DNA from: Brevundimonas vitisensis
GTDB lineage: Bacteria > Pseudomonadota > Alphaproteobacteria > Caulobacterales > Caulobacteraceae
Direction: 5' to 3'
DNA: 64,000 bases
NCBI RefSeq assembly: GCF_016656965.1
Contig: NZ_CP067977.1
Location: 1,822,501 to 1,886,500 of the forward strand
Of the stretch, positions 60,117-63,160 are shown piece by piece. Below the pieces are notes generated by a model that was not told the DNA's origin, searched no databases, and saw nothing but the letters and a program-made list of their open reading frames with translations. A program made the translations under genes and the position numbers. Every line of letters starts with the position of its first letter. Positions within the stretch are counted from its first letter, which is position 1.

Positions 60117-60700
60117 GAGGCGATTGCCCCGGCGCGGCGCAGGGCCGCCAGAAGCGACCACAGCGGCAGACCAAGGACCGTGAAATAATCCCCATCGACC
60201 CGGTCGAACAGCTGGGCGCCCAGACCCTCCAGCCGATAGGCCCCGACACAGGCCAGAAGCGCCTCGCCCTCGGTCGCCAGATAGGTGTCCAGGAACGGGT
60301 CGGAGATGTCGCGCATCACCATGGTCGCGGTCTCGACACCCGACCAGACCACCGCGCCGTCGCGCACCAGTGCCGCTCCCGAATGCAGGGTGTGGGATCG
60401 TCCGCGCATCTGGCTCAGTCGCTGACGGGCCTCATCGAGGGACCGGGCCTTGGAGATCAGGCCGCCGTCGAAGGCTAGGGTCTGGTCGCCGCCGATGACC
60501 CAGGCGCCCGGCATGGAGGCGGAAACCGCCAGGGCCTTGGCCTCGGCCAGGCGGCAGGCCAGTTCCGCCGGATCGGCGCCGGGCGTCTTCAGCGCGGCCT
60601 CGTCCACGTCGGAGGTCTGGACGGTGAACACCAGTCCCGCATCGGCCAGCATGGCCCGCCGGGCCGCACTACCGGAAGCCAGAACAAGCGGGCCGCTCAC
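60113..60700 (-). CDS. maf: Maf family nucleotide pyrophosphatase
   Basis: Hydrolyses non-canonical or modified nucleoside triphosphates to monophosphates; linked to septum control in some bacteria. The 195 residues begin VLASGSAARRAMLADAGLVF (the Maf signature S/T-x-S-x-x-R) and hold GADQTLAFDG-like GGDQTLAFDG and the SRSLDEARQRLSQMRGRSH helix. The start is GTG 60700, overlapping the ppsR stop (GTGA). Whether it is the YhdE or YceF type is not resolved. Confidence 0.95.
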   Translation of the reverse strand: MSGPLVLASGSAARRAMLADAGLVFTVQTSDVDEAALKTPGADPAELACRLAEAKALAVSASMPGAWVIGGDQTLAFDGGLISKARSLDEARQRLSQMRGRSHTLHSGAALVRDGAVVWSGVETATMVMRDISDPFLDTYLATEGEALLACVGAYRLEGLGAQLFDRVDGDYFTVLGLPLWSLLAALRRAGAIAS

Positions 60701-61566
60701 CAGCTCGTCCCCAGGCGGTGGGTCCGCCGCTCGCTCAACAGATTGACGATGGCCGCCGCCGTTTCCTCGACCGAGCGGCGTGTCACGTCGATCACCGGCC
60801 AGCCGCGCCGTTCGAACGCCCGCCGGGCCTTGACGGTCTCTTCACGCACCGCGTCATGATCGACATAGTTGGAGGCCCGGTTGGCGTTCAGCCCGTCCAG
60901 CCTGTTCTTCCTGATCTGCACCAGGCGATCGGGCGAGACCGTCAGTCCCACCACGAGCGGGTTGCGAAGGGCCACCAGCCGCTCGCCGTCCTCCTGTCCC
61001 GGCACCAGGGGCACATTCGCCGCGCGGATGCCCCGGTGCGCCAGATAGATACAGGTCGGAGTCTTTGACGTGCGGCTGACCCCGCACAGCACGACATCGG
61101 CACTTTCCAGCTGCTCGGCCGTCCCCTGACCGTCGTCATGGGCCATGGCATAGTCCAGGGCCGCGATGCGGTTGAAATATTCATGGTCCAGCGCGTGCTG
61201 CGCCCCGACCCGCGTCGACAGCGCCGCGCCCAGATAGCGGGACAGCGCCCCGACCAGGGGATCCAGGGCCCCAATCTGCGGCATGTCCAGCCGCCGGCAG
61301 CCTTCCTCCAGCTGTTCGCGCAGTTCGCGATCGACCAGGGTGTGCAGAACGACCCCCGGCGCCGCCGCCACCTCTTCCAGCACCCGGTCCAGCTGTTTGG
61401 ACGACCGGACCAGGGCATAGATGTGCTCGATGGGAATGACCCCGTCGAAACGGGCCACTACCGCCTTGGCCATGGCGTTCAGGGTTTCCCCGGTCGAATC
61501 CGAAACCAGGTGGACGTGGAAATAGGTGGCCAGCCTGTGGGCTCCGGGCGGACGGGCAGGGCTCAT
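60697..61566 (-). CDS. ppsR: Pyruvate, phosphate dikinase regulatory-type protein (PPSR/RP001 family)
   Basis: A bifunctional ADP-dependent kinase and phosphorylase family that switches pyruvate-phosphate dikinase or PEP synthase on and off. The 289 residues begin THVHLVSDSTGETL-like (YFHVHLVSDSTGETLN) and contain the P-loop GVSRTSKTPTCIYLAHRG. I start at ATG 61566; the longer frame to 61635 would run into the origin region. In C. crescentus the gene on this side of the origin was named RP001, the same family. First gene of the leftward cluster. Confidence 0.93.
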   Translation of the reverse strand: MSPARPPGAHRLATYFHVHLVSDSTGETLNAMAKAVVARFDGVIPIEHIYALVRSSKQLDRVLEEVAAAPGVVLHTLVDRELREQLEEGCRRLDMPQIGALDPLVGALSRYLGAALSTRVGAQHALDHEYFNRIAALDYAMAHDDGQGTAEQLESADVVLCGVSRTSKTPTCIYLAHRGIRAANVPLVPGQEDGERLVALRNPLVVGLTVSPDRLVQIRKNRLDGLNANRASNYVDHDAVREETVKARRAFERRGWPVIDVTRRSVEETAAAIVNLLSERRTHRLGTSW

Positions 61567-61806
61567 ATGCGGACGCTCGGGCGACGGACGTTTGTGCGGG
61601 CGGTCATGATGATCCGGGACAGTGCTGGGGGCCAAGACCCTGTTTCTGTGGACGGCGGTGTTGGGAACTGGGCCCGGCCGGTGTGCCGAATCCTATAGCG
61701 CCGGCGTCGCCCGGTCGCGAGCGGGGATCGTGAGGGAGAACTTGGGCCCTCTACCGCCACTTTGTCCCCTCTCGGGCGAGGTCGGCGGTTCTGCCTGGGG
61801 AAAAGG

Positions 61807-61821
61807 TTAATGAAGACTTAA
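61807..61821. promoter_or_regulatory. CtrA binding box 1 in the origin
   Basis: TTAA-TGAAGAC-TTAA, an exact TTAA-N7-TTAA. Phosphorylated CtrA binding such boxes represses initiation in Caulobacter. The match is to motif and context only. Confidence 0.72.
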
Positions 61822-61869
61822 CGACACACCGACCTCATACGGAGGATCGGGCTCGTCATCTCCTTGATG

Positions 61870-61884
61870 TTAAGACCTGATTAA
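61870..61884. promoter_or_regulatory. CtrA binding box 2 in the origin
   Basis: TTAA-GACCTGA-TTAA, a second exact TTAA-N7-TTAA, 63 bases from the first (six turns of helix). Both lie in the most AT-rich part of the gap. Confidence 0.72.
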
Positions 61885-62014
61885 GATTTGTCCCCGCTCT
61901 CAACAGGGCTTATCCCAGCCCCGCTGACCGGCGCGTCGGTCCGTGGACAGAGGCGGTCAGAGACCTTTTCCGGCGGAAATTATCCCCGTCATCCCGCCTC
62001 CAGCCTGCTTCTTC

Positions 62015-62027
62015 GACTCTTCGATTC
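62015..62027. promoter_or_regulatory. Two GANTC (CcrM) methylation sites before hemE
   Basis: GACTC at 62015-62019 and GATTC at 62023-62027, eight bases apart, about 70-80 bases upstream of the hemE start. GANTC is the recognition sequence of the CcrM cell-cycle methylase; paired sites here could make hemE transcription or origin firing sensitive to hemimethylation. Confidence 0.5.
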
Positions 62028-62095
62028 TAATCTTGTTCAGGGAAGGAAGAACGCCGGGCTTGAGGCCTGGGACCGGGGCTCGTAAAGCCCGATGC

Positions 62096-63160
62096 ATGAT
62101 CCAGTCCTCATCGCGCCCGGCCAATCCGTCTCGCCTTCTTCAGGTCCTGGATGGGCGGACACCGGATCGGCCTCCGGTATGGTTCATGCGTCAGGCGGGG
62201 CGGTATCTGTCCGAATACCGGGCCCTGCGCGCCGAGGCTCCCGATTTCATCGCCTTCTGCCTGAACCCGGAGATGGCGGCCGAGGCGACGATGCAGCCGA
62301 TGCGCCGGTTCGGCTTTGACGCGGCCATCGTCTTTGCGGACATCCTGCTGATCCCCCGGGCCCTGGGCCAGGACGTCTGGTTCGAGACGGGCGAGGGGCC
62401 GCGTCTGGGCGAAATGCCCTCGGTCGGGCGGATGCGGGAACTGGCCGACGGAGCCGGTGATCATCTGCATCAGGTCGGCCAGACCCTCAGCCTGGTCCGT
62501 GCGGCGCTGGAGCCCGAGCCGGAGCGGGCCCTGATCGGGTTCGCCGGCGCGCCCTGGACGGTGGCCACCTATATGCTGGACGGGCACCACAACACGATCG
62601 GCAAGGGCGAGCGGGCCACCGCCCGATCCTACGCCTATGCCGAGCCGGACAAGGTCGACGGCACGCTGGAGGTGCTGGTCGAGGCCACGGCCCGCTATCT
62701 GAAGATGCAGGCCGACGCCGGGGCCCAGGTGCTGAAGATTTTCGAGAGCTGGGCCGAGGGCCTGCCCGACGATCTGTTCGACCGCCTGGTTCTGCGCCCG
62801 CATCAGGCCCTCGTGGCCAGGGTGCGGGAACTGGGCGTGACGGTTCCGCTGATCGGCTTTCCGCGGGGCTCGGCGGCCCATGCCGAACGCTATGCCGCCG
62901 AGGTCGACGTCCAGGCCGTGGCGCTGGACACCGCCTGTCCCCTGGAGGTCGGCAAACGGGTGCAGGCGATCAAACCGATCCAGGGTAATCTGGACCCGCT
63001 GCTGTTGCGCGTCGGGGGCGCGGCACTGGACCGCAGGGTGGACCAGCTTGTCGAGGCCTGGGGCCAGGGTCCATGGATCTTCAACCTCGGCCACGGCATC
63101 CTGCCCGACGTGCCGGTGGCCCATGTGGAGCAGGTGTTGAAACGGATCGGCGCGCAATGA
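62096..63160 (+). CDS. hemE: Uroporphyrinogen decarboxylase
   Basis: Decarboxylates uroporphyrinogen III to coproporphyrinogen III in heme synthesis. The 354 residues include the substrate-site RPPVWFMRQAGRYLSEYR (Arg residues bind the acetate groups), FADIL with the key Asp, GFAGAPWTVATYML, and NLGHGILPDVP near the end. I start at ATG 62096; the longer frame to 61943 lies in the origin region and reads as non-conserved sequence. Position beside the origin is the same as in C. crescentus. The stop overlaps hemH by four bases. Confidence 0.96.
   Translation: MIQSSSRPANPSRLLQVLDGRTPDRPPVWFMRQAGRYLSEYRALRAEAPDFIAFCLNPEMAAEATMQPMRRFGFDAAIVFADILLIPRALGQDVWFETGEGPRLGEMPSVGRMRELADGAGDHLHQVGQTLSLVRAALEPEPERALIGFAGAPWTVATYMLDGHHNTIGKGERATARSYAYAEPDKVDGTLEVLVEATARYLKMQADAGAQVLKIFESWAEGLPDDLFDRLVLRPHQALVARVRELGVTVPLIGFPRGSAAHAERYAAEVDVQAVALDTACPLEVGKRVQAIKPIQGNLDPLLLRVGGAALDRRVDQLVEAWGQGPWIFNLGHGILPDVPVAHVEQVLKRIGAQ

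Follow-up and report, generated by a model that had tools for sequence, protein, structure and literature searches.

The closest described system is Cori, the chromosome origin of Caulobacter crescentus, which lies in the gap between hemE and RP001 and contains CtrA boxes together with weak DnaA sites, the G- and W-boxes. In the textbook picture, it is through CtrA at the origin that the alphaproteobacterial cell cycle is tied to DNA replication. In this report, we analyzed the corresponding gap of Brevundimonas vitisensis, in a window of 64,000 bp (bases 1,822,501-1,886,500 of a single 2,976,716-bp contig, genome G000), and compared it with related loci. With a probability of about 0.92, we consider this gap to be where the chromosome starts to replicate, an origin like the Cori of Caulobacter, because of a strand-composition switch, nearby parS-like sites, a kept gene order, a pair of CtrA boxes, conserved DnaA-like sites and an AT-rich stretch. 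That the window holds an ordinary, Cori-type origin is well supported; what is new is how this origin changed, with CtrA boxes lost throughout one clade and an array of GGCGCC palindromes found instead.

The ppsR-hemE gap and its place on the chromosome

The locus consists of two genes and the gap between them, in window coordinates:

60700..61566, minus strand: ppsR-like gene (RP001 position), NCBIfam NF003742, E 1.6e-96
61567..62095, no strand: probable replication origin region (Cori-type), the whole ppsR-hemE intergenic gap, 529 bp
62096..63160, plus strand: hemE, uroporphyrinogen decarboxylase, TIGR01464, E 9.5e-104

The gap, at 1,884,067-1,884,595 (1.884 Mb) in the genome, has the gene context of Cori: ppsR and hemE are divergent and read outward from it, exactly at the coordinates given in an earlier note that had proposed an origin here from the letters of the DNA. 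The gene at the ppsR position is presumably the one named RP001. Beyond hemE lies hemH, and on the ppsR side are maf, aroE, coaE, dnaQ and secB. The order ppsR-gap-hemE is kept in all 80 related loci (the best 80 of 298 by hemE, with 77-88% identity, most titled Brevundimonas and many from metagenome bins), in which the gap measures 407-584 bp. A family search found the same order in 22/22 genus genomes and in about 105 of 119 family genomes, the latter being a hand count over two tables. Neither an Rfam match at gathering score in 61000-62400 nor a plasmid relative of the gap at E 1e-5 was found. Several unusual loci were seen along the way. In a g6 genome (L182, G086:C1:233260-238080), ppsR and hemE are 4.7 kb apart, so that something lies between them, and two perfect CtrA boxes sit close to the hemE end. 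In G011, four of five g19 genomes and several g20 genomes, ppsR is far from the best hemE match or on a different contig; the origin context may be altered there, or the contigs broken. A bin titled Bordetella sp. (L076, JAFKFS010000033.1) has a Brevundimonas-type origin locus and is mislabelled or mixed.

Strand composition was read from the window and from 40 samples of 12 kb each, the samples amounting to 16% of the chromosome; pieces with more than 20% N were dropped, and origin and terminus were placed by a two-breakpoint fit. Between 0.5 and 1.88 Mb the GC skew is negative for the most part, and from 1.89 Mb onward, around the circle to 0.4 Mb, it is mostly positive. Its fit puts the origin at 1.93 Mb (support 1.88-2.02 Mb; R2 0.25, a weak signal), while the fit for the polar octamer GGGNAGGG, which we take to be KOPS, puts it at 1.88 Mb (support 1.87-1.88 Mb; R2 0.33), and both place the terminus at 0.39 Mb. 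Composition has its switch at the gap, and a skew minimum far from it, which the earlier note had named as a result that would overturn its claim, was not seen. Three parS-like palindromes, at 1,888,926, 1,890,564 and 1,893,344, lie 4.3-8.8 kb from the gap, within the distance of about 10 kb taken as typical of Cori and its centromere; they are the sole genome matches at one mismatch or fewer, and a backwards control pattern has one match.

The rival view is that the gap holds nothing more than the divergent promoters of ppsR and hemE under CtrA control, with the origin elsewhere, for example at dnaA (G000:C1:2387586-2388962, at 2.388 Mb, 503 kb from the gap). CtrA boxes regulate promoters too, and dnaA is an origin marker in many bacteria. 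We nevertheless find this view very improbable, since the switch in skew and KOPS falls at 1.87-2.02 Mb and away from 2.39 Mb, all three parS-like sites are near the gap, and the distance between dnaA and ppsR varies from about 0.19 to 0.75 Mb, as expected of a drifting gene (measured in the 9 of 22 genus genomes that have the two genes on a single contig, the value for G109 resting on a rounded genome length). An origin at dnaA itself was rejected on the basis of skew, KOPS and parS. Two further DnaA-family matches, G000:C1:1255631-1255855 and 824109-824456, are weak and below the cut-off; the one to the end of the model is presumably HdaB-like and the one to its middle presumably Hda-like.

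Predicted CtrA and DnaA sites in the window

Within the gap, reading from ppsR to hemE, the following features were recognized:

61647..61655, minus strand: conserved DnaA-like site CCGTCCACA, core conservation 0.91
61681..61690, plus strand: GTGTGCCGAA, likely a decayed copy of the GGGCGCCGAA box, by eye
61688..61692, no strand: GANTC, no enrichment over shuffles
61722..61730, minus strand: conserved DnaA-like site CGATCCCCG, core conservation 0.92
61762..61770, plus strand: conserved DnaA-like site TTGTCCCCT, core conservation 0.78
61796..61804, minus strand: conserved DnaA-like site TTTTCCCCA, core conservation 0.84
61807..61821, plus strand: CtrA box 1, TTAATGAAGACTTAA, perfect TTAA-N7-TTAA
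61823..61828, plus strand: GACACA, where 21 other gaps carry GGCGCC (+1 of CtrA box 1)
61855..61893, no strand: AT-rich patch around CtrA box 2, GC 0.34 over 35 bp
61870..61884, plus strand: CtrA box 2, TTAAGACCTGATTAA, perfect TTAA-N7-TTAA
61888..61896, plus strand: conserved DnaA-like site TTGTCCCCG, core conservation 0.91
61942..61950, minus strand: conserved DnaA-like site CTGTCCACG, core conservation 0.80
61980..61988, plus strand: most conserved DnaA-like site TTATCCCCG, core conservation 0.98
62009..62044, no strand: candidate DNA-unwinding element close to TTATCCCCG, GC 0.40
62015..62019, no strand: GANTC, no enrichment over shuffles
62023..62027, no strand: GANTC, no enrichment over shuffles

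The two CtrA boxes that the earlier note had reported are both perfect and, as predicted sites, give the gap the several full boxes of Cori. Dinucleotide shuffling of the gap, repeated 5000 times, never produced two perfect boxes and produced a single one nine times. There are six perfect boxes genome-wide, versus three for the backwards pattern; the Poisson chance that two of the six fall within 529 bp is 6e-7, and the pair in the gap is the only one in the genome with members within 60 bp of each other. Both boxes lie within 4 bp of a DnaA-like site (61796-61804 and 61888-61896).

The lack of a perfect DnaA box, also claimed earlier, extends further, as no 9-mer in the gap is within one mismatch of TTATCCACA. 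The weak sites that had been suspected can now be given as seven predicted, non-consensus sites, as in Cori, with a TCC(A/C)C core, the heart of the DnaA box, conserved across an alignment of 81 gaps (the 80 loci plus the window). All seven cores fall in conserved blocks, with a mean conservation of 0.87 versus 0.41 over all positions for a pattern that was picked post hoc from the alignment, and none of 528 circular shifts gave a value as high. When 116 five-letter words with at least three copies were ranked by conservation, complements being listed apart, TCCCC/GGGGA came first and TTAAG/CTTAA next. The sequence TTATCCCAG near 61909, which is DnaA-like in looks, was ruled out as not conserved.

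Instead of a single AT-rich patch, two are present, at 61855-61893 and 62009-62044. The 35-bp stretch of lowest GC is at the hemE end in 73 of the 81 gaps; the gap of the window is among the eight exceptions, the patch at CtrA box 2 being slightly lower in GC, and 62009-62044, near TTATCCCCG, is the likely unwinding element. GANTC sites, which had also been offered as evidence, carry no weight here: the gap has three, versus a mean of 3.2 in shuffles (P 0.64), so that there is no excess, a property that we do not regard as defining for Cori, and the motif was discarded as evidence for this gap.

These sites suggest how the origin might work, with DnaA and CtrA binding, and replication firing, at the gap. 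DnaA would fill the weak sites cooperatively and melt 62009-62044, the AT-rich stretch near the hemE end. In cells of the type that does not replicate, the two boxes, so close to DnaA-like sites, would be occupied by phosphorylated CtrA, which would block this; removing CtrA would permit one initiation per cycle.

CtrA boxes and GGCGCC palindromes across the genus

As the earlier note had rightly hinted, CtrA sites differ in number and in spacing within this lineage, and one clade has gone further, having none at all. Outside this clade, at least one CtrA box with no more than one mismatch is present in 66 of 67 gaps (a perfect box in only 45), two or more are present in 53, and 46 of 59 pairs are spaced 60-65 bp apart. 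Inside it, such a box is found in 0/14 gaps. The clade (L070, L076, L089, L090, L092, L093, L095, L097, L099, L106, L114, L118, L119 and L120) includes, going by record titles, B. diminuta, B. naejangsanensis, B. bullata, B. guildfordensis, B. terrae and B. pishanensis, and has a support of 1.00 in a FastTree tree of the ppsR and hemE proteins, that is, of the genes adjoining the gap. Since the 14 gaps form one supported clade, they represent one loss event, not fourteen. The half-site TTAAC is absent from all 14 gaps, and TTAA occurs at most once per gap, versus a mean of 3.7 in the others. The CtrA protein was found in 10/10 genomes tested, with 88-89% identity to the Caulobacter protein, and four of these genomes (G105, G085, G089 and G081) have clade-like gaps. 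In a second genome set, five of 21 same-genus gaps have no CtrA box, namely L131 and the clade-resembling L135, L142, L146 and L147, the last four having been left out of the tree. Outside the clade, a CtrA box with one mismatch or fewer is also missing in L104 (a metagenome-assembled genome with two GGCGCC) and in L131 (G093, three GGCGCC), which by eye has one two-mismatch box left; not every loss, therefore, accompanies a full GGCGCC array. L066, placed next to the clade, has seven GGCGCC and yet retains, where the box normally stands, a CtrA box with one mismatch.

Composition supports the position of the origin only roughly in G105, which has a clade-like gap at 2.563 Mb: the skew fit is ambiguous (support 70 kb to 2.76 Mb), KOPS gives 2.58-2.77 Mb, beside the gap and not on it, and parS-like sites are at 2.554-2.568 Mb (five) and 2.621 Mb (one).

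Each gap of the clade contains 6-11 GGCGCC palindromes, 117 in 6,690 bp (17.5/kb, versus 2.3/kb in the flanks). Six of these boxes are at the same aligned place in 14/14 species while the sequence between them varies, although the aligner was possibly drawn to the repeated boxes. The preferred flanks are G before and RWW after, and this longer GGGCGCCRWW has a density of 10.6/kb in the clade gaps versus 0.154/kb in flanks, a ratio that is partly circular, as the preference was derived from the same gaps. Elsewhere it has 2.33/kb versus 0.124/kb, and at least one copy is present in 49/67 non-clade gaps versus 66/1,089 flank windows of 480 bp. Bare GGCGCC in the 67 other gaps (4.4/kb versus 1.6/kb in flanks) is weak evidence, since its 2.7-fold excess there is similar to that of CCCGGG (2.2-fold). 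General GC richness was ruled out for the clade, where seven other GC palindromes range from absent to 1.7 times flank density. GGCGCC ranks below rare AT-rich palindromes, with very small counts, in the list of gap/flank ratios, and its case therefore rests on its counts, its aligned position, the flank-extended box and the clusters that occur only at the origin. Regarding the latter, four low-background genomes were selected, and of the 21 three-box clusters that they contain in total, 20 are inside the origin gap (G089 7/7, G119 3/3, G121 5/5 and G120 5/6). Such clusters are common outside the origin, among the places listed, in G105 (49), G081 (43) and G085 (40), which all have clade-like gaps; G101 has 46, and neither G000 nor G117 has any.

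In 21/66 gaps with a CtrA box, GGCGCC stands exactly at +1 after the first CtrA box, and in none of the 66 at any other offset from about -2 to +9; the chance per position is 0.0044, for loci that are related. In the remaining 45/66, GGCGCC is absent after this box. The homologous-looking stretch in the clade is AACGGCGCCCAG in 12/14 gaps and one letter off in 2/14, the TTAA halves being gone, while the window has TTAATGAAGACTTAA, one base, then GACACA. This looks like a composite site, with its GGCGCC half retained in the clade and its CtrA half in the window. Beside CCTATAGC, where some other Brevundimonas have a GGGCGCCGAA box, the window reads GTGTGCCGAA in place of the GGGCGCCGAA of L046.

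The state ancestral to the genus would then be the first CtrA box followed by a GGCGCC box. In the lineage of the window, the CtrA half would have stayed and the GGCGCC half disappeared, and the B. diminuta clade would have lost the CtrA half and kept and multiplied the other, some GGCGCC-reading protein doing there the work that the CtrA boxes do here. The conserved array suggests, from its sequence, an origin-binding regulator. In its full form, to which we give slightly less than even odds, our proposal is that CtrA is off the origin in the clade, and that a factor reading GGGCGCC(A/G)(A/T)(A/T), ancestrally bound at a distance of one base from CtrA box 1, perhaps in competition with CtrA, has come to control initiation via the 6-11 sites; the window would be the opposite case, with CtrA kept and the GGCGCC half-site decayed. 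The GGCGCC evidence concerns relatives, not the window, and comes from one clade, hence from one event.

Other explanations of the array were weighed against this proposal. It might have no part in replication and serve as operators of ppsR or hemE, as it lies between two promoters and, by eye, more toward ppsR. We think this unlikely, although worth keeping in mind, since 6-11 sites interleaved with conserved DnaA-like blocks exceed an ordinary operator, and one GGCGCC has a fixed spacing to the origin CtrA box in 21 gaps. Less likely still is a SeqA-like device for methylation-based sequestration, in which a DNA methyltransferase would act on GGCGCC and the extra GANTC of the clade would take part. 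A palindromic 6-mer would suit such a device, and GANTC is denser in clade gaps than in the others (11.8/kb versus 4.8/kb), but the flank preference would be needless for a bare methylation target. In gaps of the diminuta group (L089, L090, L092, L093, L095 and L099), we observed 6-8 GANTC per 460-472 bp; shuffle P values are 0.002 for L092, 0.008 for L095 and 0.018 for L090, and 0.04 for L106 and 0.21 for L070 in the wider clade. Depletion of GGCGCC in G000 (238 seen versus 512 expected under a Markov model, in 480 kb of samples) might also speak for methylation, although it is not specific, since CCGCGG is equally depleted (208 versus 442); both depletions possibly reflect restriction-modification pressure. 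Finally, that the array is chance in GC-rich DNA is scarcely credible: the three-box clusters common in some GC-rich genomes, such as G105 and G101, lend it some color, but it conflicts with the excess over flanks in the clade, with the six boxes aligned in all 14 species and with the near-confinement of clusters to the origin in the low-background genomes.

If a GGCGCC-reading factor did take over from CtrA, a replication brake has been replaced, and the genus makes this directly testable, as most of its sampled gaps have CtrA boxes and one clade has none while keeping the CtrA protein. The second box at a fixed spacing beside CtrA box 1 points to a further origin-binding factor.

Comparison with known origins

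The origin of the window resembles C. crescentus Cori in its gene context, its CtrA boxes, the lack of a strong DnaA box, an AT-rich stretch and parS close by. It differs in its DnaA-like cores, which in five of seven cases are TCCCC, not TCCAC. Other differences appear in comparison with the g21 genomes, which, judging from their layout, are probably Caulobacter. The window has two CtrA boxes 63 bp apart, whereas in 10 of 19 g21 gaps the perfect boxes number three or four and span as much as about 400 bp, five gaps have one or two, and four have none that is perfect but three with one mismatch. Furthermore, dnaA is 503 kb away in B. vitisensis; among g21 genomes, 14 of 20 have it on the same contig as the gap, at a distance of 4.6-85 kb.

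Outside the alphaproteobacteria, Escherichia coli oriC carries a GATC array, and the origin of the diminuta clade is similar in having an array of a short palindrome inside the origin. Unlike GATC, GGCGCC has a flank preference, and this parallel, which is one of sequence, does not imply methylation. We know of no reader of GGCGCC. The origins of the B. diminuta clade itself (L090 and 13 others) are at the same locus as that of the window and have conserved DnaA-like blocks in common with it, and in four genomes with diminuta-like gaps parS-like sites are near ppsR, as in the window; unlike the window, they combine the absence of any CtrA box at one mismatch or fewer with 6-11 GGCGCC and more GANTC.
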